DNA from: Rugalucina vietnamica | Lineage: Eukaryota; Mollusca; Bivalvia; Lucinida; Lucinidae | DNA length: 64,000 bases | Assembly: GCA_964017185.1 (NCBI GenBank) | Contig: OZ024874.1 | Location: 34,076,721-34,140,720 of the forward strand | Direction of reading: 5' to 3' | Shown: positions 10,220-53,227 of the stretch, one piece after another | How positions within the stretch are numbered: position 1 is the first letter of the stretch | How the letters are laid out: every line of letters begins with the position of its first letter | Made by a program: the position numbers and the translations under genes | The notes under the pieces: generated by a model | Told to the model about the DNA's origin: nothing | What the model saw: only the letters and a program-made list of their open reading frames with translations | The model's database searches: none

Positions 10220-11875
10220 CACCCTCTGTACCCGTGATACAATCAATTACCTAACGTCGGAGACTGATACAACTAGACGCGGCGCGTGGCGGAAGATGGA
10301 GTCGGGTGAGTTGACGACTATTTCAATTTTGCAGGCATTTATGCGGGGGAGTTTAGGTCAAGAGTTGGCAGAGAAATAAAGTGTACATAACTCTGTTTGT
10401 TTGCCATCAACAGTATTCTAAACAACATCACCTTGCCACAGAAACAATAGTTTTCTCGGCTGAAAATTCCACCATCGTCACGAAAAATGATTGCATTTGC
10501 TAATTTCTCCAATCTTTCGTCACCTATTGACATTTTTAACGTTTCAATACAGACCAAAAACATTCTTTGTTACATACAAGCAGAAAACAATAATGAAGTC
10601 AGGCTGGTTTGTTCACAATATGGTGTTGAACACACACAGGGTAGATCGATTAGGATACAACTAACATATATGAGTCAATTACCTCGATACAACTCGCGTA
10701 TAAGACTTTTGGATAGAAAATGATGCTCCTTACGTCGGAGAATAGAGCAAAAAATGATACTACATACGTCAAAAGACTATTGTACATTGAAAAGCCCACG
10801 GACTCCATCAGCTGGCTAACCTGCACTCCGATACACTTAGCATAGGTTGCATTCAAACTATGGTCGAACGAATTATGGATTTCGTAATAAGCTTTTAGCC
10901 TCATTATTTTGCAAAGGTTATTTAAATTTGTGTTATGTATTAGTAGCTGTGTCATAATTCTTCTGATAAACACATGCGTATTCCGCAGGGTTTAAATAAA
11001 TTTGGAAAAATCGAACGATTTTCTTCTTTGTGTCGCTTATTCTACAGTAGTCTCCCTTGATCTATTAATATATGTCTTTGATACATGAAGTATTTTATGA
11101 ATATGCATACTTTTACAACTAGAATGAATAGATTTATGTCACATGTGCAAAAAAATTATCTAACATAACACAGTTTTTCGTTTCTTTGCATTTTTGCTAG
11201 GTTTTAATTTTCGACCAAGGGTTCAATATATCCCATTTCCGTCATCGCCTTTGTTTTCGCTACACAGTACAATCTATCTACTTCTTAAATCCTAAATTTC
11301 AAGCTTGTCGATGCACAGCCCGGTCCGTGTCGGGGCCGGGGTCTGGGCGGAAATCACAACTTTGGAGTTGGATTCTCTCGAAGTGGCTCATAACACTTGA
11401 AAGGGCGGAGGTAAGTCGTGGAAATGAGCGGGTTTTTAACTAAAGCTTTGCCACGACAGTGCGGGGCTACTATCATATAGGCAAAGAGGGCAGTGAAAAC
11501 AGCGGAAGAAATTAGTTGTGATTTTACCAACCTGCTGTCCCCATGGGGCGGGAGTTTAAGCGGGAATTTGCTGGACCTGGGACTAGAGCATAAGATTCAG
11601 CAAATATTCTTAGGACTGCCGGGGTAATCCACCTACGGAGTAGGACAGTTCCTTTCTCTGTCTATGTGTGTGGAGGGCATAGATCAGTGTTGTTTTTTTT
11701 AATAATCATGTTGAAAATTAGTATCGGTACTTCGTTCCATTCAAGAAAGGGGCCTAACGGAATGCCAGTATAAATATTAAAAAAAAAAAAATCGTGTCGT
11801 GTGAGAGGTGTAATAGGGGGGGGGGGGGGGCTACGTGAAGAACGTCAATCGAACGAACAATGCAGACATTTAATT

Positions 11876-11927
<52 letters not shown>

Positions 11928-12720
11928 AGATTGAGAGACATTCTGCTGATAAAATTTAGGTGGAAATGTGTGAACTGTTGGTCAACCTTAGATGCGTTGT
12001 GACTAAATTAATAAATAAATAAATAAGTAGCATTCCGTATTACCAACCGTTAAAATTGCACAAACAAGAGCCCTTGGAACATGTTGATATAAGGAACACA
12101 TGCAAACTTCCCTGCCTGACACACTCGTGCTCGCTAGTCCGTGGGCTTTTCAATGTACAATAGTCGTTTGACGTAAGTAGTATCATTTTTTGCTCTATTC
12201 ACCGACGTAAGGAGCATCATTTTCTATCCAAAAGTCTTATACGTGAGTTGTATCGAGGTAATTGACTTATATAGGTTAGTTGTATCCTAATCGATCTACC
12301 CTGTGTGTGTTCAACACCATATTGTGAACAAACCAGCCTGACTTCATTATTGTTTTCTGCTTGTATGTAACAAAGAATGTTTTTGGTCTATATTGAAATG
12401 TTAAAAATGTCAATAGGTGACGAAAGATTGGAGAAATTAGCAAATGCAATCATTTTTCGTGACGATGGTGGAATTTTTAGCCGAGAAAACTATTGTTTCT
12501 GTAGCAAGGAGATGTTGTTTAGAATACTGTTGATGGCAAACAAACAGAGTTATGTACACTTTATTTCTCTGCCAACTCTTGACCTAAACTCCCCCGCATA
12601 AATGCCTGTAAAATTAAAATAATCGTCAACTCACCTGACTCCATCTTCCGCCACGCACCGCGTCTAGTTGTATCAGTCTCTGACGTTAGGTAATTGATTG
12701 TATCACGGGTACAGAGGGCG
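10220..12720. mobile_element. 2.5-kb foldback DNA element with 585-bp inverted arms
   Basis: Arms 10220-10804 and 12136-12720 are inverted copies that appear about 97% identical by eye. They start CRCCCTCTGTACCCGTGATA and are flanked by TTTCT (10215-10219, 12721-12725). The interrupted T1 tandem repeat reads continuously across the site once one TTTCT is removed. Arms contain iterated GATACAAY and TACGTC words, likely protein-binding sites. The 1.33-kb centre holds a G-run (11815-11830), a ~48-bp T-run (11879-11926) and a stretch shared with 29300-29600, but no transposase. A 74-residue frame in each arm differs only by amino-acid changes and is not a credible gene. Confidence 0.9.
10808..11080. 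repeat. Repeat shared with 29300-29600 (inverted)
   Basis: Words such as CTGGCTAACCTGCACTCCGAT, CTTAGCATAGGTT and CTACAGTAGTCTCCCTTGATC recur in reverse complement at 29300-29600. That copy carries about 27 extra bases within the block. It shows that the loop of the foldback element has relatives elsewhere. Confidence 0.7.
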
Positions 12721-31559: not shown

Positions 31560-33188
31560 TGCAACGTACATCCGAACATTTGAACCAACGAGTGTTATGT
31601 AAATAGTTTTTGAAAACTCATATATGACTATTATTTTTCTAATACGAACTGTATTTGTCAATGCTGTATGAACGCATCTTATTTTTTCTTCAACAGTACG
31701 TATGTAGTGCAGAAAGTGCATAAACAATTATTCTGACACAATATATTCATACTATGGATAGTGAACAACTTATCCGTCACATTAATTAAATATGACGTCT
31801 AAAGCATACTGTTCTTTTTCCGAACAGTATATAAAAGCTCTTCCGTATTATTAATGGGTCACACCGTGAACACATATTCAAGGTTTACCGTATAATGTGG
31901 AGGTTAACGCACGGTTGTCTTTTTATTCTGCGAGTTCAAACAAAATGTATCTCGTAAGCAATGCTGCAAGCAAACTGACAAACATATAAGTTGCTGATGA
32001 GAATGCTAACTTAAAACCTTGTTAGGCTGATATATTGAAATTTTGTGTATACAAGTTTATTTTTTAATTCGCAAAGACAAATGAATTGTATTGATTTTGT
32101 ATGGGTTAACTCCCAATCTTCTTGTTGGCATTTTCTCGTGGTGCAGTCAAAAATTCACTTATTAGTCTATCGTGGACATGGCCACGTCTATTATATTGTT
32201 AGTTTGTTTTACATGATCAAAGCACACATTTATTGTACAACTGTATTACTTTTCGGCTATCTATAAAATATGTTGTTGTTGTTTTCGTATTTCCGACTTT
32301 TCAATAAAGGGTGTTGCTTATTTTGTAATGATTTACCATTCATAAAACTGAAAAGCAAAAGCTGCTCCTTATTTTGACATCTTTTAACTGGATAAGCCAG
32401 TGATAGTCAAAGGTTCAAATTAGAATATGCCTGTGCATATTTCGACTTGCTAATTCATGCAATGTGTTTTTCTACATTTGTTAACAATATATTAGGATTT
32501 AGGCACCTCATTTTGCAATTATAATGTGATATATGACAGACGCTTAAAGATTACTGTACATTTATCATGTATCTACATAATGGTCTTTATAAAATGTAAA
32601 CAGCTGCGCAAGAAAGAATTGCTGCTTGCTATGATTGTATGTGACTATAAATTAGTAAAGCAGTCAAAAGTGTAATATTTAGAATGTATATTCACCTAAA
32701 TTCGAAGAGATTCTGCTTATTATGGGATGATGTTGTTTTGTAATGTAATGTGACGCGTCTTTGATTGTTTTGTCTTGTAATGTGATGCGTCCTTGATGGG
32801 TTTGTCTTATAATATAATGTATGACTTTTTGAAAGTTTCAAATGGCATAAACCAAGAATCGTTTGAATAATTTTAGCATATTCCTGTTTAATATCATTTA
32901 ACCTATGGCTATTCAAGAACCAACTTTAAAAATGAAATCGTAAAATTATAAAATAAATGCATAATCTATTAAAACAAAGTACATTATATATTCCTATCAT
33001 ATGAATGAAATGCCTCCTAACACTGTCATGAATATTTCTTTTTACTTTTTTATTTTAACTCATGTATTTTTTCATGTTTCTGGAGAAGGGGATCGGGTGT
33101 CTCGGGCTTATGGGTTTAGATTCTGTTGCCAAATTGTTGCTGACATAACAAATGTTGACTGGTTTCTATTGTCTCTTACGAAAATTAC

Positions 33189-34015
33189 ATGATGCAAGTA
33201 AAATGTTCTAAAAATCCAGTCATCATGACGTCGTACCGTTGCAGTTGTAAGTTTAAACTTGCTTTACACTTTATCCTGTTATTAAACTTTGTTGGAAGTG
33301 AACTCTTCACTCACTTTATCTTATATCATATAGTGCAGAACAGCAGATTAGCCAAACACATTAGAACGAACGGACATCATATTATTATCTCACCTGGAAT
33401 GAAGACCGTTGATAATATTAGATTCGTAAAGATGTGCTTACAATACTTCTTTCTCCTAGTATCTATAACCTGGCTATATATATTATTGTTATGTTCGGGG
33501 GACGTACAGCCAAATCCAGGTCCTCTTTCTTCGTCTATGTCTTCCACTAGTATACATTCTTCTAGCTCAACCATGTCTACAGATTTCACGGACGCTCTTA
33601 ATGTTAGTCATAACTTGTCCTTCGTACATTATAACGTACAAAGCATTGTGCATAAACTTGACATTTTACACGCGGAATTAATCGCCTTTGACATACTGGC
33701 TTTCTCAGAGACATGGTTAAATCCTGCGATAGCATCTGACGACTTGATACTACAGACTTATGGTAAGCCTGAGCGTAAAGACCGTGATGGCGACAGCCAT
33801 GGGGGTGTGTTGATATATGTCAAAAGCGGCCTACGTTACAAGCGAAGAGATGATCTGGAAATTCGGGGAATCGAAAGTATTTGGATTGAATTAGCTAACC
33901 ATCATAAACGTATCTTATTTGGCTTATTTTATAGACCGCCTGACGCTAATGCCAACTGTCTTTCCCAAATTGAGGATTCTATCGCCTTAGCTGTTGATAC
34001 CGGTATATCAGATAT
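33189..34015 (+). pseudogene. LINE A ORF2, 5' part: 2A-like motif and APE endonuclease N-terminus
   Basis: The frame opens at an ATG. Residues 22-50 and 83-102 are hydrophobic. The second run leads directly into GDVQPNPGP (residues 104-112, 33498-33524), a 2A-like ribosome-skipping motif with Q where E is usual. A Ser-rich linker follows. The endonuclease/exonuclease/phosphatase domain then starts: LSFVHYNVQSI, DILAFSETWLN (catalytic Glu), GGVLIYVK, GLFYRPP. The domain breaks at the Ngaro-like element, where the chimeric frame stops at 34026-34028. The rest of the domain, from GDFN on, resumes at 41011. The element cannot make a full ORF2 protein. Confidence 0.9.
33498..33524 (+). other. 2A-like 'stop-carry on' motif in LINE A ORF2
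   Basis: It encodes GDVQPNPGP. The usual 2A core is D-V/I-E-x-N-P-G-P, so this is a one-residue variant (Q for E) with the invariant NPGP kept. It is preceded by a Leu/Ile-rich stretch. 2A-like sequences are established in APE-type non-LTR elements of invertebrates. Activity of the Q variant is not known from the sequence. Confidence 0.8.
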
Positions 34016-34021
34016 TATTAT

Positions 34022-34653
34022 TTTATGACGATTCGGTAGTAAACACACAATCACATACTTGTTTAAATTTTATTGACTAGATTTTGAAGCAAAATTGACT
34101 AGATAAACTAAAATATACAACTCAGTTTATATATGTACTTTTCCTTATAAAGTTTACATCAGTTCAAGTTTTATCGGGTTGGAAGAAGTTCGGCCACAAC
34201 GAAGGCTATTAAGGCTGTAGCATCATATTAACTTTTAAATAGGAAGACTGGATGTCACTTTGACCAATTTAAGAATTTTATCTTTTTCACTTCTTACCCT
34301 TCCATCATAACCATCTTATACCAATATTTATCATACTTTTTAGTTACCAAGGGAGGTACACAGATGCCGGACATACCCGCCAAAATTGTCCAGTCCCATC
34401 CTGCCCCCTTTTTCCTTTAAAATCAATTTTCGTAAGATGTCACAGCACTTAAACTACCCTTGTAGATAAGCATACGGGTAACATCCTGGTTCTCACTTTC
34501 AGTCATATTATGCCAGTATAACATTACTGCGCCATAGCATAATAATGAATAGATTAACTGGAAGCTGTCTCTCAAGTATAACCATGTGGCGCCTTTACAA
34601 GACAGCCTACAGTTAAAATGCTGTACATCCAGTCTTCTGCTAGAATTTCCGCC
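34022..34653 (-). repeat. Ngaro-like split direct repeat B2
   Basis: 632 bp, matching B1 at 35827-36458 with a single difference (T at 34305, C at 36110). It forms the 3' terminus of the element on the minus strand. Confidence 0.95.
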
Positions 34654-35584
34654 CCAAGTCCCCGCAATTTAGCGAGTCCTGCATCTGAATACCTAAAAGT
34701 TATACAAGGCTGAAATTTTGCATTAATTTCAAATGACCCCTGACGTGATACATCCAGTATTCCTGTCACATACTCAACTAAAACATAACAGAATTGATTA
34801 TAACTTTCACAAGCCTTCGTGTGACAGTCTTAATCTTGATCCTTTGAATACACTATAGAGTTGCCCCACAGCTTAACTGAGAGACGTTTCAGTTCCATGA
34901 TCACCATCCCAACATGTTAGTAGTTGCCAATGCCTTCAAGTATAACTATGAAGCGCCAAGAAAGCACAAGCCTCTACCATATACATGTAGTTAATTCCTT
35001 TTGCAACTGCTCAATCTGACCTCTTCTTGTCTCATTTATACACTTCCAAGTCATGTCAAATAAAGAGGAAAGTACAACAGGATTTGTTCATATAACTGGC
35101 CCAAAAATCGTATAGGGATATGGATTGTATGTCCCATCAATTAGTACCAAACATATCGTATTGTATCTGCCAGCAGTTCTCGCCCTACATATTGTATCTG
35201 AATCTCCCAGCATGTCACGCCATGTATTATATCTGAAGCAGCAGAAGAGTCGTCAACTATGATCATATCAGATGACAACTTTATCATTGCAGTCCCAACT
35301 TGCGCCATTGTATCCACAGATGATGTAGTCTGGGCCATAATAAGGCAATCCACAATACAACAGGAAGGGCAACAATGCACCTGCAATCAGAAACTTGAGG
35401 GCAGTATCATGAACACTTAAAGATGTGAATAATTCAAATATATGTGGAAATAAAGTATTAAATTAAACCTATAAACAGTGACATAAAACATACATGTATG
35501 TGAAAAGAATCATTGAACTGCAGAATCTTAATAGTTAAGACTCAACAATAGACTGCAACATTTACATCGGGAGAGGTGGGTGGG
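34654..35584 (-). other. Non-repeated spacer between A2 and B2 of the Ngaro-like element
   Basis: 931 bp without a plausible frame, present once. Such a spacer is expected in the A1...B1-A2...B2 layout. Confidence 0.7.
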
Positions 35585-35820
35585 AATGTCAAGTTGATAA
35601 CACTTTCTGAAACTGCTTCTGTCAAAAGGTGAAGGTCCATGAATGCTCAACTATTTGCATGCTCAACTATTTGCATATTCATCATGTCAAAAGCTATTTG
35701 CACATTTGTCATATTAATGGTACATAGATTTTCATCCTTAGTAAGAACACCACCCAATATGAGTGCAACTTGTAAACATCGCAAAAATAATGTAGGATAT
35801 AGCTGATGTGCAATATCCAG
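35585..35820 (-). repeat. Ngaro-like split direct repeat A2
   Basis: 236 bp, identical to A1 (40785-41004) apart from a tandem duplication of the 16-mer ATGCTCAACTATTTGC at about 35643-35674. It abuts B1 through TATTAT at 35821-35826. Confidence 0.95.
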
Positions 35821-35826
35821 TATTAT

Positions 35827-36458
35827 TTTATGACGATTCGGTAGTAAACACACAATCACATACTTGTTTAAATTTTATTGACTAGATTTTGAAGCAAAAT
35901 TGACTAGATAAACTAAAATATACAACTCAGTTTATATATGTACTTTTCCTTATAAAGTTTACATCAGTTCAAGTTTTATCGGGTTGGAAGAAGTTCGGCC
36001 ACAACGAAGGCTATTAAGGCTGTAGCATCATATTAACTTTTAAATAGGAAGACTGGATGTCACTTTGACCAATTTAAGAATTTTATCTTTTTCACTTCTT
36101 ACCCTTCCACCATAACCATCTTATACCAATATTTATCATACTTTTTAGTTACCAAGGGAGGTACACAGATGCCGGACATACCCGCCAAAATTGTCCAGTC
36201 CCATCCTGCCCCCTTTTTCCTTTAAAATCAATTTTCGTAAGATGTCACAGCACTTAAACTACCCTTGTAGATAAGCATACGGGTAACATCCTGGTTCTCA
36301 CTTTCAGTCATATTATGCCAGTATAACATTACTGCGCCATAGCATAATAATGAATAGATTAACTGGAAGCTGTCTCTCAAGTATAACCATGTGGCGCCTT
36401 TACAAGACAGCCTACAGTTAAAATGCTGTACATCCAGTCTTCTGCTAGAATTTCCGCC
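35827..36458 (-). repeat. Ngaro-like split direct repeat B1
   Basis: 632-bp counterpart of B2, joined head-on to A2 through TATTAT. The B1-A2 junction reproduces the sequence expected of a circular intermediate. Confidence 0.95.
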
Positions 36459-36523
36459 ACAGCAAATTTAATGACATAGCAAATTTAATGACATCCATTA
36501 AATTTGTCCCCCAAATTCTAGCC

Positions 36524-37114
36524 CTAATCACTTGCCCTGTACACAACTTTATTGGTCTTCAGAAATGAACTTACAGCTTCCTGCATATTAACCAAAAGAA
36601 GATCAGAACCAATATCTGAAAGATGGACACCATCCCGCCAAAAAAGACCAGGTGTATGATCAAAATTATCATGTATCAGTTGCCGACCATCTGCATATGA
36701 TGCTACAACCCTCCTAGCTGTTCTATTTAAACAACCCCTTTTCTTTTCCATTGCGGGATAGTCTTTAGGCTTAGCACCTTTCCACACCAGTCTTGGAAGA
36801 ATATCCGACCAGACAAATACAACATCGGGATATGTCCAAAACATATACCTGAAATCCCTCTCAATTCGTTTTTGAAATGTCCTTAATTTTGTACTAACAA
36901 CACTATTTCCACCCAAATGAATGATCATCATAAATGGCCGTGCCTTAAGCATCATTAAATATTGAATGCGACTTTTCAAATCTGGCCATGTCATGCCGCG
37001 TACACCAAACCAACGCACCCTTATATTGTCTGCTTCCATTTGAAAATGAACCAGCCCTTTAATTTCTGCCCGCTCAGCTGCCCAGTGGACCAAAGAGTCA
37101 CCTATCACCCACAC
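36524..37114 (-). CDS. SGNH/GDSL-type hydrolase encoded by the Ngaro-like element
   Basis: 196 residues from ATG. The four SGNH blocks are recognisable: VIGDS (Ser7), a Gly block WFGVRGMTW (Gly37/Gly40), IHLGGN (Asn70) and DGVHLS (Asp161, His164). The catalytic set looks complete. Such hydrolases act on ester bonds of lipids or carbohydrates. Extra hydrolase frames of this kind are known in some Ngaro elements and esterases occur in some LINE ORF1s; their role in transposition is unknown. The frame starts 35 bases after the recombinase stop, in another phase. TTTTACAG directly precedes the ATG and could be a 3' splice site. Confidence 0.8.
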   Translation of the reverse strand: MWVIGDSLVHWAAERAEIKGLVHFQMEADNIRVRWFGVRGMTWPDLKSRIQYLMMLKARPFMMIIHLGGNSVVSTKLRTFQKRIERDFRYMFWTYPDVVFVWSDILPRLVWKGAKPKDYPAMEKKRGCLNRTARRVVASYADGRQLIHDNFDHTPGLFWRDGVHLSDIGSDLLLVNMQEAVSSFLKTNKVVYRASD

Positions 37115-37149
37115 ATCTGTAAAATTGATATAGATCCATTTTTAGAAAC

Positions 37150-38018
37150 TTATGTTCTAATGTAAGATTGAAAAGCTGATGATTGCCATCTGCCCATTTT
37201 TTGTATATCAGAGTCAGGTACCCCCATAATAGACAAATCTGTGGCCCGGCCAATACGAAAACTATGTGATTTGAAGTTGGACTCCGGTAACTGCAGAGGT
37301 CGCACTGATTTAGCCAAAATAGCTGAAAACTGGTTTCGTGTTAGAGGGGCAAGGGTTTTGTGAATAAATAAGAGACCTGTAACCCTAGGACGTATTGCCA
37401 AGTATTTTTTCATTGCCACCACACAACATATGTCCAATTGCGAATCAGATGGTATGCGCAAGGTTATAGGTCTTTTACTTGTCTTTGATTGTCGCAAAGA
37501 AACATTTAATGCCCTGCTATGTTCATCACATTTAATATCATCTATTCGCAATGGACAGTCACTTAGCTCATTCACAGTGAAAACCAACTCACTAACTCGA
37601 AATAAGCCGAAATAAGCCAGGGAATAGACAGCTGTAAATAGTTGACATTCATAGGTTGACTTGCAAATTGCAGGAAGAGCATTGCAAATTTTTTTCAATA
37701 TATCTCTGGTGATAGGAGCCCTACCATCTTTCCTACTGTATAAACGCTTATAACCTTCCAACATATTCCTAATCAAAAAAAAAAATCAAATAATGAAGGC
37801 ATGCCATAAAGTTTTTGAAAATAATTTAAACCATACATATAGGTCATTACTGTCTTGGGCGAAAATTTTTTGTCTGAACAATATGCTATGAAAAGTATAA
37901 TATTCTGCAAGGACATATTCCCTGCTGTTGTAACAGAATATAAGTTGCAGAAGCTCGTAAAGCTGCTCAATGCTGTTTTGTAGGACATTTTCGAATTATG
38001 AGATAAACTGGCATTCAA
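37150..38018 (-). pseudogene. Tyrosine recombinase of the Ngaro-like element, split by homopolymer frameshift
   Basis: The N-terminal part (38018-37773, 81 residues) contains the core-binding region (MSYKTALSSF..FC..YSVT). The catalytic part (37776-37150) has Arg60 (GLFRVSEL), His171 and Arg174 (HSFRIGR), Trp197 (GRW) and nucleophile Tyr205 (SYIRT). The R-HxxR-W-Y set is therefore complete. The two parts differ in phase at an 11-base A/T run (37775-37785); loss of two bases or gain of one would reconnect them. The frame overlaps the RT-RNase H stop by a few bases (TATTGA). Strand exchange by this enzyme replaces the integrase of LTR elements. The break could be real, an assembly error in the homopolymer, or slippage in expression. 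Confidence 0.88.
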
Positions 38019-39712
38019 TAGCTTTCTGGCGCTAAGTTAAATATGTTCCAAAGATGGTCTGGTACTGGAGTGGGCTGCTCTGCTGCCTCTGGTGCCATGG
38101 CTCTGAATTTGTGGAATTGTAAACGAGAAATATTATCAACTAAAGCATTTTTTGCACTACTTAAATGAGATCCCCTCACCAGTATATTCAACTCAAGACA
38201 TTTCAGAGTAAACGCTCGTAACAACACCATAACCCGTTTTGACTTTGATGACCATGAATTCAGAATTTCAACCACTGACTGATTATCACAATTGAAAGTG
38301 ATCTTTTTGTTTCTTAGCTCATCACCCCAAATGTATAAGGAGACCAGCAAGGGAAAAAATTCTAAAATGGTAATGTCAGCTGTGATACCAAGCACATGCC
38401 ATGATTCCGGCCAAACTCCAAAAGACCATCTCCCCTGAAAATAACAACCAAACCCTAAACCCCTTCCAGCGGCTGCATCTGTATACAACTGTAACTCTGT
38501 GTTCAATGACCAGAATTGATCATAAAATACTGATGTACCATTAAACCTCTGAAAAAAGAGTTTCCACATAGCAAGGTCATCCCGTATACCTTGATTCAAC
38601 CTGATGTGATGGTGAGGCTTTTGCAGGCCACATATAGAATTTATTAATCTACGACAAAATGGCCTACCTGGGGCAACTGCACGGCAAGCAAACTGGAGGG
38701 ACCCAATTAGGGACTGCATTGTTTTTAAAGTGGTCTTTTCCTTAGACAAGATATTTTCAATTTTTTCCACAATGTCCTTAATTTTTTCTATTGGAATTCT
38801 CACCTCCATAAGTATTGAATCAAGTTCAAGACCCAAAAATATGATGACCTGTTGTGGTCCTTCAGTTTTTTCAGCATTTAGTGGAACACCAAGTGCCTCC
38901 ATACGTTGTTGAAATGTGTCCAGTACATGCTGACAATCTGATTTTTCCTTACCTCCCATAAGAAAATCATCCAAATAATGTAATAAATCACCTATGCTGA
39001 TGTAACCCCTGACACAATGTTCCAAAAAGGTAGCCAAAAGCTCAAATGTGCTACAACTTATAGAACATCCAAATGGCATGGCACGATCATAATAATACTG
39101 ACCATCAAACTTAAAACCAAGTAATTTTAAATCTGAAACTGCCACAGGCAATAAGCGAAATGCACTTTTAATATCGCACTTAGAAAGGTAGCATCCAGTG
39201 CCAAGTGATTGAACCATTTGTATAGCCTGATCAAAACTTGTGTATTGGACTGAGCACAATTCAGGATCAATAAAATCATTAACTGAATCTCCTCGTGGGT
39301 AAGACAAATGATGAATCAAGCGAAAATCCCCTTTTGTTTTCTTTTCAACAAGACCAATTGGTGAGACCCTAAAGTTTGTGAAAGGTGCCTCTGGAAATGG
39401 GCCAGCAATCCTATCTTCAGCCAATTCTTTAGCTAACTTTAATCTGACAATAGAAGGGTTCTGATTTGCTGATTTTAAGTTTTTGCATTCCACTGATGTT
39501 ATTGGTCCCGAATAATGAATAGAAAAACCTGAACGGAAGCCTTCCAATAAAATTGAAGCATCTGGTTCCTTGTAACCCCGTAATTCCCGTTCTAATTCAT
39601 CAACATTTATGGGTGACTTAGCCATGGAAGGACAATGAATGTGGTCATTTTTACCGAGATCCACGGGAATAATTCCCTCTTCCCCTGTATGGTCGTCCAC
39701 CCCTGCTGCCAC
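38015..39712 (-). CDS. Reverse transcriptase-RNase H polyprotein of the Ngaro-like element
   Basis: 565 residues in the longest frame, which opens at a non-ATG codon. The first ATG (MAKSPINV) is near 39624. RT motifs: DFRLIHHLSYP (129-139), CDIKSAFRLLPV (179-190, catalytic Asp), MPFG (212-215), HYLDDF (245-250, YLDD box), FLGLELDS. RNase H follows with Asp412 (YTDAAAGRG), Glu451 (LEFFPL), Asp476 (FNCDNQSV) and Asp526 (ALVDNISR). No Dam-like methyltransferase follows, as expected for Ngaro and unlike DIRS/PAT. It overlaps gag by 62 bases in a different phase, so it may need frameshifting or internal initiation. The frame is intact. Confidence 0.93.
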   Translation of the reverse strand: MAAGVDDHTGEEGIIPVDLGKNDHIHCPSMAKSPINVDELERELRGYKEPDASILLEGFRSGFSIHYSGPITSVECKNLKSANQNPSIVRLKLAKELAEDRIAGPFPEAPFTNFRVSPIGLVEKKTKGDFRLIHHLSYPRGDSVNDFIDPELCSVQYTSFDQAIQMVQSLGTGCYLSKCDIKSAFRLLPVAVSDLKLLGFKFDGQYYYDRAMPFGCSISCSTFELLATFLEHCVRGYISIGDLLHYLDDFLMGGKEKSDCQHVLDTFQQRMEALGVPLNAEKTEGPQQVIIFLGLELDSILMEVRIPIEKIKDIVEKIENILSKEKTTLKTMQSLIGSLQFACRAVAPGRPFCRRLINSICGLQKPHHHIRLNQGIRDDLAMWKLFFQRFNGTSVFYDQFWSLNTELQLYTDAAAGRGLGFGCYFQGRWSFGVWPESWHVLGITADITILEFFPLLVSLYIWGDELRNKKITFNCDNQSVVEILNSWSSKSKRVMVLLRAFTLKCLELNILVRGSHLSSAKNALVDNISRLQFHKFRAMAPEAAEQPTPVPDHLWNIFNLAPESY

Positions 39713-40733
39713 GAAAATTACCCCTTGCTACTGGATGTTGTACTGTCACAGACGCTGGACTTTGTTGCCAGCAAGACCATGCTCCATGTGAGGACTGGCC
39801 ACAGGATGAACAAATATGATCAAATTTGCATGGAAACCAACTGCAGTAGCCTTGATTAAATCCATGGCATGTACGAAAAGACTTCCTTTTTTGAACAGAT
39901 AACGAATTACTATTGGAAGTCTGATTAGAGCCTGTCTCTGACTGAGTAGTGGTTGAATTTTGATTAGACACAGAGAAAGTCTTCAGCCATAGATCTGAAT
40001 TAATTTGAGACCAAGAACATGCGTATGCGGCTTGCCTTACACGAAATTGTTCATCATAATCACGCCACAGAAAACCACCATGTTTTCTAGCAGCATCTCT
40101 GATAACAGACATATACTGTAATAGTTCCTGAACTTTCTGTGGATGCTTTTGAAGGTAAATAGACATAAAAATCAGGAAAGCATCTGTCCATTTATCTAAA
40201 CTTTGCACTTTTTCCTTTGAAAACTTAGGCTGCTTTTCAAGGACCCCAGACTCAGACACCTTAAGTGTTCCCCCAGAACATAGCTCATGCAATTCAATAC
40301 TACCTTTTAGTAGAAGATTTATGTTAATGTACTGATTTGACCATATTTTGTCTTTAATTTGCTTAGGTATGTGCACTGATAAATCATCCCCACCACACCT
40401 GACCACCTCAATGTCATCATTGCCTAAAACGTCCTTGAAAATATTTTCTGAAGTTTCTTTTGCCCCCATGATCTCATTTTTATTTGAAACTCCTTCTGAA
40501 GTATCCAAAACAGTTGCTTGTTTCAAGATAGCTTCGAAATCTACAATTTTATTACCGTTAGAGGCCTGTGGTTGCTCTGATACGCCCAAATTAATGGGCT
40601 CAACCTCTTCAAGGTTGTCTCCTTGAGTCAAGGTTTGACCCAGATTCTGTCTTTTACTTCTCCTATTTGCTTTGCCACTCCCGGTCGTTGTAGCCACAGC
40701 TTCCCGAGTCCTTTTTCTACTCCTATTTACCAT
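39651..40733 (-). CDS. Gag-like protein of the Ngaro-like element
   Basis: 360 residues from ATG. The N-terminus is basic (MVNRSRKRTREAV..KANRRSKRQN), possibly a nuclear localisation signal. The middle is a helical capsid-like region without named motif. At 289-321 there are two zinc-binding modules: C-x7-C-x4-C-x3-H, then C-x2-C-x4-H-x4-C. The C-terminus (about 335-360) is an RG/RGG-rich nucleic-acid-binding tail. Position as first frame after A1 and the zinc fingers support a Gag role: binding and packaging element RNA. Confidence 0.85.
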   Translation of the reverse strand: MVNRSRKRTREAVATTTGSGKANRRSKRQNLGQTLTQGDNLEEVEPINLGVSEQPQASNGNKIVDFEAILKQATVLDTSEGVSNKNEIMGAKETSENIFKDVLGNDDIEVVRCGGDDLSVHIPKQIKDKIWSNQYININLLLKGSIELHELCSGGTLKVSESGVLEKQPKFSKEKVQSLDKWTDAFLIFMSIYLQKHPQKVQELLQYMSVIRDAARKHGGFLWRDYDEQFRVRQAAYACSWSQINSDLWLKTFSVSNQNSTTTQSETGSNQTSNSNSLSVQKRKSFRTCHGFNQGYCSWFPCKFDHICSSCGQSSHGAWSCWQQSPASVTVQHPVARGNFRGSRGGRPYRGRGNYSRGSR

Positions 40734-40784
40734 GACTTTATTTCCAAAATTGCTATTAATCTCTTAAATACAAAAATTATTGTC

Positions 40785-41004
40785 AATGTCAAGTTGATAA
40801 CACTTTCTGAAACTGCTTCTGTCAAAAGGTGAAGGTCCATGAATGCTCAACTATTTGCATATTCATCATGTCAAAAGCTATTTGCACATTTGTCATATTA
40901 ATGGTACATAGATTTTCATCCTTAGTAAGAACACCACCCAATATGAGTGCAACTTGTAAACATCGCAAAAATAATGTAGGATATAGCTGATGTGCAATAT
41001 CCAG
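40785..41004 (-). repeat. Ngaro-like split direct repeat A1
   Basis: 220 bp forming the 5' terminus on the minus strand, 52 bases upstream of the gag ATG. It must contain or adjoin the promoter. It equals A2 without the 16-bp duplication. Confidence 0.95.
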
Positions 41005-43729
41005 TATTATAACGGGTGATTTTAATTTGAACATGTTTAACCAACAAACCTCAAGAAAAATTTACACTATTTGTGAAACATATTCTCTCAGTCAAATTAT
41101 TACTGAACCTACTCATTTCACAGAGCGTTCAAGTTCATTAATAGACATACTAGTTGTTAGTAACAAAGACCATGTACTTCTAAGTGGTGTTGGTGAACCT
41201 TTTCTCACACAACAAATACGTTACCATTGCCCAGTCTATGGTATCTTTAAATTTACAAAACCTAAAACCTTGTCATTTACGCGACATGTTTGGTACTATG
41301 AACGTGGCAACTATAATCAATTACGCGACAAAGCTTCAGATATAAACTGGGAAACGTTACAAAATGACGATATTGATTTATACGCTGAAAACATACATAA
41401 TGCTGTTACAAAAATTGCAAGTGAATGTATACCTAACAGAGAAATTAAAGTAAAATCTTCAGATCCTCCATGGATAACATCTGGTTTAAAACGACATATC
41501 AGGAAGAGAAAACGAGCGTTTAAACGAGCAAAAAGATCCGCTTCAGAGCATGACTGGCGCAATTTCAAAAACATTAGAAACACAGTTGTTAATCGGGTCC
41601 GTGAAGCTAAGCAATCTTATCATGACAAACTAGCAAACAAACTCTCCTCTGGAACGCTTTCTTCTAAAGACTGGTGGTCAACACTGAAATCTTTTATTAT
41701 GCCTGAATCGAAATCCACTATTCCACCGATTGAACACAATGATGACATTTATTCAGACGAACATGCAAAAGCTAACATTTTTAATAATTATTTTCAAAGT
41801 CAGACTATCTTAGATGAAACACACGCCTTTCTACCTGATTTGCCTTTGACTCGTTTTCAATCTGAACTTACAAATATTGTTCTTACACCTTTAGAGGTCG
41901 AATCTGTACTCAAAATACTACCTATAGGTAAGGCTACTGGACCGAATGGTCTAAGCAATCGCATTCTGCGCGAATTGGCTAGAGAAATTTCTGTACCATA
42001 CTGTAATCTCTTCAATCAGTCTCTACGTACTGGCATTGTTCCTTCACAATATAAGGAAGCCAATGTCTGCCCTATTCCTAAAAAAGGTGATCTTTCTCTA
42101 GTTTCAAACTACCGTCCTATATCACTTCTCAATTCAGAGGACAAGCTCTTTGAACGTCTTGTATTTAAATATCTTTTCAACCACTTACGTGATAATAATC
42201 TTTTGACTTCACTCCAATCAGGCTTCATTCCGGGAGATTCTAGCATTAATCAGTTGACATTTTTATACAACACCTTTTGCAAAGCAGTAGATTCAGGCAA
42301 GGAAGTAAGAGCCGTCTTCTGTGACATTAGCAAAGCGTTTGATTGTGTGTGGCACGAAGGACTCATTTACAAATTACGCGCTGCTGGTGTCACAGGAGAG
42401 GTTCTGGCTTGGTTTAAGAGTTTTCTCTCGAACAGAAGGCAAAGGGTTGTTTTACCTGGATCACATTCTGACTGGATATTCATACGGGCAGGGGTTCCCC
42501 AGGGATCCATCTTGGGACCATTACTTTTCCTGTTATATATCAACGATATAGTTCTTGAGATAAGGTCAAATATTCGCTTATTCGCAGACGATACTAGTCT
42601 TTTTATAGTAGTTGAAAACCCGCTAGAAGCTTCAGATATCCTAAACAATGACCTCACAAAAATAACACGCTGGGCTGGGACGTGGCTTGTCTCTTTCAAT
42701 GCAGCAAAAACAAACACTTTATTGATGTCACTTAAAAAAATTAAACCTTATCATCCACCTCTTTATATGCAAGATCAACAAATAACCGAAGTCGATTCTC
42801 ACAAACACTTAGGTATATATTTCTCATCTGATTGTTCATGGCATCGCCACATAAATTACATTAAAGAAAAAGCTTGGGCACGAATTAACGTCATGAGAAA
42901 ATTAAAGTTTAAGCTTGACAGAAAATCTCTAGAAACCATTTATTTGACATTTATCAGACCTATTATAGAGTACGGGGATGTACTATGGGACAACTGCACT
43001 CAATATGAAAAAGATGATTTAGAAAAAATACAAATAGAAGCCGCGAGAATAGCAATAGGAGCAACAAAACTCATTTCGTTAAATGCACTTTTTCGTGAAA
43101 TACAGTGGGAATCGTTAGAACAAAGACGACACAAGCATCAATTAACAATGTTTTACAAAATGTCAAATGACCTAACGCCCGGCTACCTTACATCACTTGT
43201 CCCTCAACCTGTCGGTGCAGCATCTAGATATAGCTTGCGGAATGCAAATAATCTGCAAACGATTAAATGTAGAACCAACTTATATTATGAATCGTTTCTA
43301 CCCTCAGCTGTAAGGAGCTGGAATGCCTTGCCTACAGAAGTCCAGCAATCTGATTCTGTTAACACTTTTAAAAGGCGCATAACAACGAAACAACCAACTC
43401 CTAAATATTACTATGTAGGTAGTAGAAGAGCCCAAATATTACATACCAGGCTGAGAACTAATTGCAGTGGCTTAAATATAGATCTTTTCACAAGAAATAT
43501 TTCTGATTCGCCCTTATGTAGCTGCGGTAGCATTGAAGATGCACAACACTTTTTCTTTCACTGTAGATACTATACAGCACAGCGTGACATTCTGCTCAAT
43601 GCTACGCGTGAATACACATTACCATCCTTAAACTGTTTCTTATATGGAAATTCATTACTATCTTTTGAGTCTAATTCCAACATATTTAAACACGTACAAA
43701 AATACATAATAGATACGAACCGTTTCTAA
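41005..43729 (+). pseudogene. LINE A ORF2, 3' part: endonuclease C-terminus, reverse transcriptase, C-terminal zinc motif
   Basis: The uninterrupted frame resumes with GDFNLN (endonuclease Asp/Asn), TSLIDILVV-type sequence and a YHCPVY block with the final His. RT motifs: NYRPISLL, LQSGFIPG, AVFCDISKAFDCVW (first catalytic Asp), AGVPQGSILGPLLFLLYIND, LFADDTSLF (FADD), HLGIYF. After the RT lies RTNCSGLNIDLF followed by CSCGSIEDAQHFFFHC, a putative C-x-C...H...C zinc motif at the C-terminus. The RT would copy element RNA onto nicked target DNA. No stop or frameshift is seen apart from the Ngaro-like insertion, so LINE A was probably active shortly before being interrupted. Confidence 0.92.
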
Positions 43730-46410: not shown

Positions 46411-47558
46411 TTGTTTGCAAGTTGCCGGTTTGTTCAATATCCAAAACAACAGTTTAACTTGGAAAGTGAAAATAGGTTTGACCTACTTGCAAAAGGTCAT
46501 GAAACCAAGTCCACTGAAACCTTGACTAGCAAAAACAGTTTTATTAGTGGTCTGAAATTTTCCAGTATCAACATAAACAGTATAAGAGGCAAAAAACTTG
46601 AGTTGTTGGCCTTCATTGATTTTCATCAGTCTCAGATTTTGGCCATTCAGGAGACAAAAATTGACAATTCCATATTAACGTCTGAATTATTTCCGGAATC
46701 TTTTCCATACAGCGTGTACAGAAAGGATAGAACCTTAAATGGTGGTGGTGTTATGCTTCTTGTGCACAAGGACATCCCACACATGCCCCTCACAGAATTG
46801 GACAATGACTCAGAGTCAGTTTGGGTCAAACTTTTTGTAAATAAGAAAACTCACTTTGTGGCTAGCTGGTATCGACCACCTGTCGATGGTCATTTACCAG
46901 TATCGGACAATGGAAATGACTTATTGAATTCCCTGGAAAAGTTTGACAATTTATTTAGAGAACAGCTTGACAAAATCAAAAATATTAATAAAGGCAACAA
47001 ACCCCCCTTAATTCACGTTTTAGGTGATTTCAACTTTAGAGATATTGTATGGCCGGACAGACTCAGCAAATCTGGGTCATCATTGAGTCAGACGGAGGGT
47101 CAGATTTTGATAGATATCATGAACGACCACGGTTTGGAACAATTAGTCAATTTCTCAACCAGAGAAAGAAATACTTTGGACTTAATTTTGACCTCTCTTC
47201 CAGGTCAGTTTGCAGACATTCATTCCCCGGATAAGCTCAGTGATCATGACATTGTTTCTGGCACTTTGAAAATTGTTATCCCCCCAATAAAGAAACCTAG
47301 GAGAAAAGTGTATCGTTATCAGAAAGGTGATTATGAATCTATGAGAGCAGAAACACTTAAATTTGCAAAGGAAACATACTTCAACGGTTACTCAGATACT
47401 CGGTCGGTCCAGGAAAATTTCAATCTCATTACATCGTTTATTCAGGAATCGGCAGATAAACATATCCCCTCAAAAACTAGTCGCTCAGTTTCCTCTGTCC
47501 CTTGGATAACACCTGAAATAAGGAGGAAGATTCGCAGGAAAATGCAACTCATGCAAAA
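46411..47558 (+). pseudogene. LINE B ORF2, endonuclease part
   Basis: Endonuclease motifs in order: FSSININSIRGKKLELL, ILAIQETKID (catalytic Glu), NGGGVMLLV, SVWVKLF, SWYRPP, HVLGDFNFRDIVW, RNTLDLILTS and LSDHDIVSG (final Asp/His). The frame continues upstream of 46411 but is broken by an in-frame TAA at 46408-46410. It shifts phase at 47555-47558 (CAAAAG), where one A appears lost, and then runs out of register. The reverse transcriptase continues in the next frame. Confidence 0.88.
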
Positions 47559-49415
47559 GCTAAAAAGACTGGTAGTGCAAAATTTAGATCTAAATTTGAA
47601 TCTTTACGGAAAGAGATCAAAGCTGATATCAGAAAGCAGCATGATCTTTACGTGAACAACTTGGTAGGAGATGTTAAGGCTAATCCTAGAGATTTTTACA
47701 GGTACATAAACAGTCAGAAAAAAGATACCCAAGGTATTCCCCCGTTGAAAAAGAGAAATGGAAGTGGAATTGCACAATCCGAATTTGAGAAGGCGGAAGA
47801 ATTTAATGGTCAGTTCTCGGATGTTTTCACTAAAAGTGAATACAAACAGGTCCCTCTTATGGATAGATCTGCCCCATTCATGCATGATATTGTGGTCACA
47901 AAGGAAGGGGTGACCAAACTTCTCAAAGGTCTAAACCCGTCTAAAGCCTTAGGGCCTGATGAGCTTCATCCCAGGGTCCTAAAGGAACTGGCTGTGGAAT
48001 TAGGGCCAGTATTCGCCCATCTCTTCCAGCAGTCAATTGATATAGGTGAAATTCCTAAAGAATGGTCTCTTGCTAATATCTGCCCCCTGTTTAAGAAGGG
48101 TGACAGGTCACTTGCCCGCAATTACCGCCCTGTTTCTTTGACATGCATTCCTTGTAAGCTTCTTGAACATATTGTATGCTCAAATATTATGGCCCATCTT
48201 GATGAACATGAACTCTTGTCGGACAGGCAACACGCATTTAGGAAATGGCATAGCTGTGAAACTCAGTTGACTACAGTGATAAATGACTGGGCCAAAATCT
48301 TAGACAAAAAAGGCCAGGTCGACACTTTTATACTCGATTTTGAAAAGGCTTTTGATACTCCTCCCCATGAACTCCTTAAAAGCAAATTGTTTAGCTATGG
48401 AATAGGTGGAACAACACTGAATTGGATAAATGCTTTCCTTTGTTTCCGACAACAAAGGGTAGTGGTTAATGGTATTAAATCGGATTGGGCTCCAGTTGTG
48501 TCGGGTGTCCCTCAGGGCACCGTTCTCGGCCCCTTGCTGTTTTCCTTGTATATAAATGACATCTCAGCAGACATTGAGTCTGAAATAAGACTCTTTGCTG
48601 ATGATTGTGTTTGCTATCGTGAAATCAAGAATGAAGAGGATACATTGAAACTTCAGAGAGACATTGATCGTTTAGGCAGTTGGGCTAGGAAATGGGGAAT
48701 GAGATTTCAACCCGTCAAATGCAACATGATGCAGCTGACAAATAAACGGTCTAGTAAGATACAGGCTAACTACACCCTTGAGGGCACTGTACTGGAAAAC
48801 GTTGAAAGCATAAAATACCTGGGTGTAACTATCACAAATGATTTGAAATGGAATACTCATATTTCCAATGTCTGTACAAAGGCTAACAGAACTCTCGGAT
48901 TCTTAAGGAGAAATTTGTATTCTTGTCCCCCAGATGTGAAAGAAGCAGCTTATAAAGGACTGGTGCGGCCGGTCTTGGAATATGGAAGCTCAGTTTGGGA
49001 CCCTCACACTCATGGCCTCCAGGAAGAACTGGAAAAGGTACAAAATCGTGCGGCAAGGTTTGTGACGGGAAATTATGTTTTTGAAACTGGGAGCATGACT
49101 GGCATTTTAGGTCAACTGAAATGGGAATCTCTTAAGAAAAGGAGGAAGGATAGTAGACTTATATTGCTATACAAAGGTCTAAAGGGTAAAGCCAGAATAC
49201 CCACAGATGACCTTATCCCAAAGAATAGGCGTTGTAGAAATCAACACTCTTTGGCTTTTCAGATACCTTCAGCTAGCAAAGAAGCGTACAAAAGTAGTTT
49301 CTTTCCACAGACTATCAGGGACTGGAATGACCTCCCTGATTCACTTATCTCCTCTGCTGAAATGTCTGATGACTGTGTGTCCAAGTTCGCTACACTCGTG
49401 CGTTCAAGGGACTAA
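47559..49415 (+). pseudogene. LINE B ORF2, reverse transcriptase part
   Basis: From the frameshift the frame encodes a basic linker and RT: ALGPDELHPRVLKEL, ICPLFKKGD, NYRPVSLT, FRKWHSCETQL, FILDFEKAFDTPPHELL (catalytic Asp), SGVPQGTVLGPLLFSLYIND, LFADDCVCY (FADD), YLGVTI, and the thumb region GLVRPVLEYGSSVWDPH. The RT itself is open over about 587 residues. Unlike LINE A it lacks a C-terminal CxC..H..C motif. It belongs to a different family from LINE A. Confidence 0.88.
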
Positions 49416-49436
49416 TTTCTCCCCCATCCGAACCCC

Positions 49437-49470
49437 CTGGTGAAATAATGTCATTTGGCGTGTCACCAGT
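49437..49470 (+). other. LINE B 3'-terminal stem-loop
   Basis: Perfect 7-bp arms CTGGTGA / TCACCAG with a 19-base loop. 3' stem-loops are recognised by the reverse transcriptase in stringent LINEs. The minimal copy at 51338-51384 consists of just this structure and the ATTCAG tail. Confidence 0.7.
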
Positions 49471-49482
49471 AAACTATTCAGA

Positions 49483-50770: not shown

Positions 50771-51847
50771 TTATAACTTTAACTTCTTGGTAACACTCAG
50801 CTTTTTCTCGACAGAATCATTGATATAACCATCCTTGGACAATGTGCACTTCCAACGACCATGTCTTAAAAGACAACGCTCATTAATATCATCGTTATCT
50901 CCCGCATTTGCCACCATAGAAGCTCCGCTAGCTCTTAGGCTATGAGTTCCTAAATTCAAATTTGGTGCAACAAGTTTTAATTTACCAACAATGCATTCTC
51001 GAGCCCTAGTGTAACTGATCTGCTTATTTGTAGACAGCAATTTAGCTTTGCCTTTAGATCTATTTACCGGTCTGAACAAATACATATCTGAATGAACGTC
51101 TTGTCCAGAAACCTGTAAATACTTAGTTAGCATTGTATGTGGGCAAGCGGAAGATGAACATTTAGTAATCATAACTTCTTTCCCACTCCTATAAACGTCT
51201 GTTTTATTTTTTCTAATTTGTAAAGTTAAATAATCGACTTTGAATTCTACATCACTACATTTCAGCTGACTAATTTCGTTAAAGCGCAAAAAGCCTGCGT
51301 ATCCTAGTAAAATCATTGACAAATCTCTTAAATGTAACCTGGTGAAATAATGTCATTTGGCGTGTCACCAGTAAACTATTCAGATTCAGTAACACGTCAT
51401 TTGTTTCATGAAATAAGTCGCACAGAGAAATTAACATTTCTGTGTTAATTGTATCTTCCTTCTTAACTGGAATAGAATTCAGTCTTTTCCCAGCTTCTAA
51501 CAAGCTTTTAACCCATCCATTTGAAGTTGGATCAGGTAAATTGTTTATTTCATGCAACCATTTTATGCTATAGAAAGCTGTAGATATTACATGAAAAGAT
51601 GCCTTCATATCTAATAAATGCGTCATATAAATTGCCACGTGAATTGGATCTGCCGGTTTACATGGAAAACCTTTGGCATCACAGAATGATTTAAAACGAT
51701 TGAAATGTGCCAAGTACTTTTTGTTTGTATTGTCCGCTTTTGAACACAACATGTAACTAGCCATCCTCCCCGCTAAATCGTCGCCATTGGATATATTTAC
51801 ACCACCGCTGCCCAACCTTTCATGAATTGTCTCCCTTAGACCAACAC
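50771..51847 (-). pseudogene. Tyrosine recombinase of a DIRS/PAT-type relic, interrupted by LINE B 3' end
   Basis: The N-terminal core-binding part (51847-51385) includes NTNKKYLAHFNRFKSFC and AIYMTHLLD. The catalytic part (51322-50771) has Arg13 (GFLRFNEI), His127 and Arg130 (GTHSLRASG), His154/Trp157 (RHGRW) and Tyr166 (KDGYIND), the full catalytic set. The KDGY...S.EKKLSVTKKL end is typical of DIRS-like recombinases of marine invertebrates. Phase is broken by the 47-bp LINE B 3'-end copy plus a few filler bases at about 51333-51384. A GTAAGT...TTTCAG pair (51896-51848) upstream could be a 49-bp intron, but the joined frame soon meets a stop. Confidence 0.85.
51338..51384 (+). mobile_element. 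47-bp dead-on-arrival copy of the LINE B 3' end
   Basis: Identical over 47 bases to 49436-49482, including the CTGGTGA/TCACCAG stem-loop, ending ATTCAG|ATTCAG. It lies inside the recombinase gene on the opposite strand. The two ATTCAG units suggest a short hexamer tail typical of CR1-group 3' ends. Confidence 0.8.
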
Positions 51848-52030
51848 CTGAAACACGAATGCAAGCACATTAAATACAATGCTATCACATACTTACATTG
51901 ACTGTGTTGTATAAATTCCTCCTACACCTTCCGCATTCACCTATAAAGGAATGACAGCATGAACACTATATAATAATTTAACTCCTCTGAACTGCAACTC
52001 CCGACAGCGACAGTACACCTGCCGTAAAAA

Positions 52031-52765
52031 TCAAAATCTGATTTTAAAAGCTGCAATCATGAAACTTAACTGTTCTTTACTGAAAATGCCATTGTTGCCT
52101 CTACCTTTGACAATTACATTTCGTGAAGGTAACACAATTACCTCCCTTATGAAAAACTTGAGCTGCCCGTTTATGTCATGTAACTCTGGCCAATATGGCG
52201 ATGATTTCCAAACCGGAATTATCAAAGTACCATTTGCAGATTCATATTCTAGCTTCTTTATACAATTAAGTATCAACCTTGGAGGTGGTACAAGCCAGTT
52301 TATTTCATCTGACCACTGTTGGTCTAAACCATTTAAGCCTTGCATTCCCGGAACCCAAAATCTTGAATTAAATTTACAACACTTCGTATTGTAGTTGGAA
52401 GCAAATCTATCGAATGTATGTAAACCCCACTTGGCATCAAGATCATGGAATACTGAATCACTAACCGACCAATCGTCACAATCTCCGAATCTACTCAAAT
52501 CGTCAGCCATTTGATTATCTGCCCTTGGTATCCATTCAGGACACAATGTTATGCCATTTGTCTCGCATAATTCATTGATATCACATGCTATTTCTTGCAA
52601 TTCAGATATTCTGCTTCCTATTTGTAACACTGACTGGACATTTTTGTTATCTGAAAAGACCTTGATTTTCTTGTTTTTCAAATACTTTATATTGCTCTTC
52701 AAAACACACCTTACCGTTTCACTTTCCCGCCATGTGGAACTTTTCAGCTTTTCTTCTCGACACCA
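52031..52765 (-). pseudogene. RNase H and Dam-like methyltransferase domains of a DIRS/PAT-type relic
   Basis: The open frame extends upstream of the first ATG (52702) to include SSTWRESETV, the RNase H helix. Numbering from that ATG: VFSDNKNVQSVL (Asp18), WIPRADNQMADDLSR (Asp67). A second domain follows: TFDRFASNYN (97-106), FNSRFWVPG, the NPPY-equivalent position reading VPPP (138-141), and GTLIIPVWKSSPYWPEL. This matches the phage-Dam-like methyltransferase of DIRS/PAT elements in layout; the methyl-transfer motif is not canonical. No reverse transcriptase is found upstream, so the element is 5'-truncated. The recombinase lies 180-220 bases downstream. Confidence 0.8.
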
Positions 52766-53193
52766 GTCTCCAAAACAATACCTGACACTTGTTGGGTTTC
52801 CGTGGTTGTTTGTGTGTCACCCTTACAAACCTCTGACATATTTTCCAACGGCTCCGCGCCGTGTCTCTCCATACACTTTTCATCATTTTCAGTGTAAGAA
52901 TTGAATACAAACTTATCATGGTTTTGATTCTTTACCTTGCTCGCTTCCGGTTTACTACCACATCCCAACTCCGAGACTGTCTCAACGCCCACTTCCGGGG
53001 GCCTATCAAATCCCACTTCCGAGGGCATATCAAATCCCACTTCCGTGGGCCTATCAAATCCCACTTCCGGGGGCCTTTCAAAACCCACTTCCGGGGGTCT
53101 TTCCAAACCCATTTCAGAACTTTCAGATCCCGCATATGGGGGATTTTGTGTACAGTAAACGTCACGTATATGTTTGTCTTCAAATTGTGCCAA
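52744..53193 (-). other. Unrecognised open frame containing a 24-bp repeat
   Basis: 149 residues from ATG, with six copies of a (R/M)PPEVGFD-type octapeptide (from the 24-bp repeat at about 52985-53110), then an acidic Ser/Thr-rich tail. It overlaps the start of the RNase H region in another phase. It might be a Gag remnant of the relic or unrelated sequence. Both strands are open across the repeat because 24 is divisible by three, which weakens the case for coding. Confidence 0.3.
52985..53110. repeat. 24-bp tandem repeat, about five to six copies
   Basis: Unit CACTTCCGGGGGCCTATCAAATCC, with variants at the G-run and CTATC/CTTTC. Confidence 0.9.
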
Positions 53194-53227
53194 GTAACTC
53201 GTTATGTTTTACATACAATGATCTTGC

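Follow-up and report, generated by a model that had tools for sequence, protein, structure and literature searches.

TATTAT at the internal joint and both junctions of a Ngaro-like retrotransposon within a LINE endonuclease gene of Rugalucina vietnamica

Within a 64-kb stretch of the Rugalucina vietnamica genome (contig OZ024874.1, 37% GC; referred to below as the window), an insert of about 7 kb at positions 34016-41010 splits open reading frame 2 (ORF2) of a long interspersed nuclear element (LINE) and, judged from its sequence, is a Ngaro-type retrotransposon in a young copy. The same six bases, TATTAT, lie at both of its junctions with the LINE and at the joint between its internal repeats B1 and A2, and the element encodes a tyrosine recombinase (YR). 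We favour the reading, plausible and with a probability of about 0.72 from this single insertion, that the B-A joint of a circular copy crossed over with a TATTAT in the LINE through the YR. Both the kind of element and the kind of mechanism are already known; the integration of YR retrotransposons is known largely from models, and here one young locus displays the putative circle joint, both junctions and a reconstructable coding target, yielding a checkable prediction for Ngaro, an overlap of 6 base pairs (bp).

Six bases shared by the joint and the target

Read along the window, the left junction runs from LINE GATAT through TATTAT into TTTATGACG, the internal joint from CCAG (35817-35820) through TATTAT into the same TTTATGACG (35827-35835), and the right junction from CCAG (41001-41004) through TATTAT into AACGGG (Table 1). 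An earlier model-made reading of the letters without database searches (the sequence-only reading) had placed TATTAT at all three sites, where we also read it; its span for the joint, 35815-35832, was roughly right, the six bases themselves lying at 35821-35826. Moreover, CCAGTATTAT occurs twice in the window against a shuffle mean of 0.18, and the 19-mer CCAGTATTATTTTATGACG has one exact occurrence and matches the left end at 3 mismatches, with 0.00 expected. The B1/A2 joint alone is standard Ngaro anatomy and no sign of crossover; what counts is its match to the target.

If the element is removed and a single TATTAT retained, the LINE has an open frame that reads SDIIITGDFN and scores 47.5 bits for Exo_endo_phos and 29.8 bits for Exo_endo_phos_2 in Pfam. 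An empty site lacking TATTAT, which would be at odds with the sequence-only reading, fits Pfam worse (36.0 and 21.5 bits, respectively) and is disfavoured by these scores. In the window as it stands, the left-hand Exo_endo_phos match came from an ORF at 33159-34028, with a few element bases included, and the right-hand ORF, matching RVT_1, spans 40991-43729.

The internal joint was aligned with the inferred empty site, for which the LINE flanks were joined in a script. In the register used, identity is exactly 6 bp and ends sharply, at G/T on the left and T/A on the right, and the 21-nucleotide (nt) flanks of joint and target are identical at 6 of 21 positions on either side. TATTAT occurs in two overlapping registers in the target, a short run of ATT (GATATTATTATAACGGG), and a 7-bp match to the joint, visible by eye three bases leftward, was left unused. 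This one insertion, with its inferred empty site, has what a crossover calls for: a short overlap identical in the two partners and kept on both sides of the insert. Since, with the element excluded, TATTAT is found at just 67 of 114,010 positions in the window (both strands; expected frequency from composition alone, 0.00096), a chance match of joint and target is unlikely.

For this crossover we infer a circle, the action of the YR and a requirement for six-base identity. RNA from within A1 to within B2 would be copied into complementary DNA (cDNA); the internal B1/A2 joint would be the template that restores the missing ends and closes the circle, with TATTAT at its B-A joint; and the element's YR would exchange strands between this joint and TATTAT in the LINE endonuclease gene. 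The circle and the target would each contribute one flanking TATTAT, leaving six-base direct repeats without a staggered-cut duplication. Since an AATAAA polyadenylation-like signal lies 47 nt before the B end in B2 (B1 holds a copy of it), the RNA should stop short of the B end and so depend on the internal joint.

By analogy, this account would be the DIRS1 model with a longer shared sequence. The joint of the DIRS1 circle is thought to recombine with an identical target of 3 bp, making no duplication (PMC3266345), and circular DIRS-1 cDNA was demonstrated experimentally in an agnA deletion strain (PMC5633606). The sequence-only reading proposed an apparent duplication without integrase; the DIRS1 literature already contains the idea that a circle integrates without duplicating its target site (PMC3266345). 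DIRS1 differs in its 3-bp joint, inverted terminal repeats and methyltransferase domain, whereas the present element has a 6-bp shared sequence and split direct repeats (PMC3266345). Fungal and oomycete Cryptons likewise carry 4- to 6-bp terminal direct repeats, taken as recombination substrates, although Cryptons are YR DNA transposons without long direct repeats (PMC3212892).

Anatomy and identity of the element

On the minus strand, the insert consists of A1, a gag-like ORF, a reverse transcriptase (RT)/RNase H ORF, the YR, an SGNH-like hydrolase ORF, B1, TATTAT, A2, a 928-nt segment and B2. These are the split direct repeats A1-[ORFs]-B1-A2-B2 of the published Ngaro layout (PMC8547959), plus the unique segment between A2 and B2, which the sequence-only reading does not mention. 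RT/RNase H and YR have the same orientation (RVT_1 64.5 bits, Phage_integrase 40.5 bits; RNase H not scored separately), and the repeats, the YR and the split Exo_endo_phos ORF agree with a Ngaro-like element inside a LINE endonuclease gene, as had been proposed. The B copies have 2 mismatches over 641 nt (TATTAT counted), one at the third position from the boundary of the repeat; the sole difference between the A copies is a tandem duplication of 16 nt, carried by A2. Because the B copies differ so little and the A copies have no mismatch, the insert is young; "fossilised", the earlier word for the crossover, suits only the frame-broken YR described below.

Table 1 Features of the insert and its target LINE (window positions; aa, amino acids).
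Feature	Position	Strand	Basis or remark
Target LINE ORF2, left part (2A-like GDVQPNPGP, presumed; N-terminal endonuclease)	33159-34021	+	Exo_endo_phos 2.7e-7
TATTAT, left copy, LINE/B2 junction	34016-34021	.	sequence
B2 repeat (element 3' end)	34022-34656	-	repeat comparison
AATAAA polyadenylation-like signal in B2	34069-34074	-	motif match only
Unique segment between A2 and B2, 928 nt, single occurrence	34657-35584	-	stops in all six frames
Degenerate A-terminus copy with first 4 TATTAT bases	34740-34761	-	18/22 vs 35803-35824
A2 repeat	35585-35820	-	0 mismatches vs A1; extra 16-nt tandem duplication
TATTAT, internal, B1/A2 joint (inferred circle joint)	35821-35826	.	sequence
B1 repeat	35827-36461	-	repeat comparison
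SGNH/GDSL hydrolase-like ORF, 205 aa stop to stop, 3' of YR	36524-37141	-	Lipase_GDSL_2
YR, catalytic half (HSFR, GRW, C-terminal YIRT visible)	37150-37785	-	PF00589
YR, N-terminal part, different frame	37773-38036	-	coordinates counted from translation
RT/RNase H ORF, 570 aa	38015-39727	-	RVT_1 1.5e-17; RNase H from position and motif alone
gag-like ORF with Cys/His zinc-finger-like cluster	39651-40763	-	motif by eye
A1 repeat (element 5' end)	40785-41004	-	repeat comparison
TATTAT, right copy, A1/LINE junction	41005-41010	.	sequence
Target LINE ORF2, right part (remaining endonuclease, TGDFN; RT)	41005-43729	+	RVT_1 2.3e-31

The RT and YR exceed their Pfam cut-offs, whereas the hydrolase-like ORF falls short. 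The YR matches PF00589 (E = 3.1e-10, 40.5 bits, cut-off 27.1) and, among PHROGs, the phrog_1 integrase (1.8e-10); taken whole (37150-38036, minus strand) it is open in two frames, the halves of which join at an A-run (37775-37785). The hydrolase-like ORF matches Lipase_GDSL_2 at E = 1.8e-5 and 25.7 bits, under the curated cut-off of 32.9, and has no PHROGs match; in its translation we take GDS, GGN and DGVH to be the SGNH/GDSL blocks. The gag-like ORF has no Pfam family at E 0.001 and no PHROGs match. On the target side, GDVQPNPGP, which we presume to be a 2A-like motif, lies upstream of the endonuclease near the start of LINE ORF2 (33498-33524).

Other classes of element fit less well. The four element ORFs give no Dam methyltransferase match (Pfam, E 0.001), as a PAT-like element with split repeats would require, although the same library does find Dam in a second YR element of the window (27.9 bits, E = 2.2e-6). 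Their Pfam matches (E up to 0.001) include no DDE integrase family, and the pairing of an integrase domain with simple long terminal repeats that marks a long terminal repeat retrotransposon is absent here. DIRS1-like inverted terminal repeats and internal complementary regions are likewise absent among repeats of at least 20 nt in 32000-43000, where just two inverted matches occur, both of 24 nt, linking the hydrolase region to one or other of the B copies, and neither is terminal.

Comparison with the Ngaro element with SGNH hydrolase DIRS-53_XT of Xenopus, one of the amphibian Ngaro elements described as having an SGNH ORF that follows the YR (PMC9210276), shows the same split direct repeats (A1...B1 A2 B2) and the same order of gag-like ORF, RT/RNase H, YR and SGNH, with no methyltransferase. 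However, B is 635 nt here (641 with TATTAT) against 152 bp in DIRS-53_XT, A is 220 and 236 nt against 236 bp, and the 928-nt unique segment has no counterpart mentioned in the excerpt on DIRS-53_XT (PMC9210276). Ngaro elements of Cafeteria also have the A1-[ORFs]-B1A2B2 layout and a YR, together with isolated AB repeats in that genome, although the main text names no hydrolase for them (PMC8547959).

Pattern matches to the RT and YR numbered 16 and 8 in the viral_contigs set and 76 and 50 in the genome_contigs set, none of them upheld by tblastn, in a scan that reaches close relatives only. The B-end 18-mer has 0 occurrences in viral_contigs, the whole element has no match among plasmids (megablast), and the RT protein none among phages. 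Among PDB sequences the YR matched only two arginases (E = 0.9), and there was no match for the LINE endonuclease (E up to 0.1) or the RT (E up to 0.01). Rfam (gathering scores) and ARAGORN, run on the window, gave 0 and 0 hits.

Crossover and competing routes of insertion

The 6-bp strand exchange put forward by the sequence-only reading is supported by the six shared bases, the sharp ends of identity and the YR, and a number of points tell against it. The evidence for crossover is one insertion. The YR frame is broken in the sequenced copy, or else the A-run is a sequencing error; unless it is, activity would have come from a parental copy or in trans. Inverted arms of 11-13 bp about the overlap are typical of site-specific crossover by YRs (PMC3212892), and a search for inverted 13-nt arms at TATTAT (spacers 0-15, offsets -8 to +8) found at best 7 of 13 matching, against a median best of 8 at 2000 random positions (613 with 7, 1267 above 7). 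If any 6-mer from the 26 nt surrounding the joint is allowed, 1403 of 114,013 positions match (1.2%); since the match was chosen post hoc, this figure is the fairer one, and it is not negligible. An empty site with two TATTATs fits about as well as one with a single copy (Exo_endo_phos 47.9 bits, Exo_endo_phos_2 26.6 bits). Finally, no terminal repeats were found for animal Cryptons (PMC3212892), and DIRS-1 reportedly targets copies of itself with no apparent sequence preference (PMC5633606), so that identity is not a requirement across all YR elements.

Part of this evidence would suit a cDNA, linear or circular, joined into a LINE break at a microhomology by host end joining or by the enzymes of another element, with the element's own YR uninvolved. 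Such joining would likewise leave a perfect 6-bp match between unrelated flanks, the same trace at one locus as a crossover, and it would agree with the lack of visible arms and with the broken YR frame of the present copy. However, the match coincides precisely with the B-A joint, both A1 and B2 extend fully to the limits set by A2 and B1, the junctions have no filler and the element encodes a YR; the unused 7-bp match three bases away (by eye) is weak evidence in the same direction. We consider microhomology joining unlikely.

An ordinary 6-bp target-site duplication from staggered cuts, with a coincidental match to the joint, would also leave TATTAT at each end, and a single locus cannot separate it from a crossover. 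Such a duplication would nevertheless require a coincidence of about 0.0006 (67/114,010) to 0.001 (composition), the Pfam matches include no DDE integrase and no duplication arises in the DIRS1 model of integration (PMC3266345), all of which makes it very improbable. It is hardly credible that A2-unique-B2 (34016-35826), with TATTAT at each side and 928 nt parting its repeats, was an earlier short element at whose TATTAT end A1-ORFs-B1 later integrated, the internal joint then being a second integration junction rather than inherited: isolated AB repeats are reported in Cafeteria genomes (PMC8547959), but A1-ORFs-B1-A2-B2 is the published Ngaro layout (PMC8547959, PMC9210276) and the near-identical A and B copies suggest one age.

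If crossover at a shared hexamer were true across copies, Ngaro would take its place in a series of overlap lengths with DIRS1 (3 bp) and the Cryptons of fungi and oomycetes (4-6 bp), and the flanking 6-mers should not be annotated as target-site duplications. The literature searched, which did not include the Ngaro founding papers, states no overlap length for Ngaro in the parts available.

The unique segment and other elements in the window

The unique segment contains a degenerate copy of the A end, CTGACGTGATACATCCAGTATT, a new detail of this element; the copy is perhaps a vestige of a joint, or else a repeat that binds protein. In the window, only this copy and the two A ends reach at least 18 of 22 matches, and, with both strands counted, the best of 1000 dinucleotide shuffles of the segment scored 17, a test that is not fully independent because a repeat search over 1811 nt had first brought up the pair. 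Among 829 other 22-mers of A2/B2 taken as a control, 3 reached at least 18 in the segment, all at one overlapping site (34571-34573); these are due to a second short repeated motif with copies at 34512, 34572 and 34936. Of the three copies of this separate 22-nt motif, B2 holds two and the unique segment one.

More speculatively, this Ngaro lineage might choose its targets by 6-bp overlap identity without recognisable arms, with A2-unique-B2, which has TATTAT at each side and carries the degenerate third A end, as an att-flanked cassette that the recombinase could exchange or mobilise by itself. We regard this combination as quite improbable; if it were true, solo AB copies would be products of the YR and not scars of homologous recombination.

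Elsewhere in the window, a remnant of a second YR element (50771-53208, minus strand), DIRS1-like by its domains, matches Phage_integrase at 32.5 bits and has a Dam-type methyltransferase scoring just below its cut-off, together with weak SAM-like N-terminal and RNase H-like matches; no long terminal repeats were found for it. It was considered as a further example of crossover and rejected, since no complete ends were found for it, only internal inverted pairs of 22 and 19 nt. A second LINE (46411-49415) encodes an endonuclease and a reverse transcriptase in two overlapping frames. An exact 47-nt direct repeat (49436-49482 and 51338-51384) has one copy just 3' of the ORF of this LINE and the other inside the YR of the second element, at the point where its two frames meet; this repeat could represent a templated insertion or a very small mobile element. 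Lastly, a 583-nt inverted repeat (10222-10804 and 12136-12718; 97% complementary, 1.3 kb apart) is possibly another transposon.

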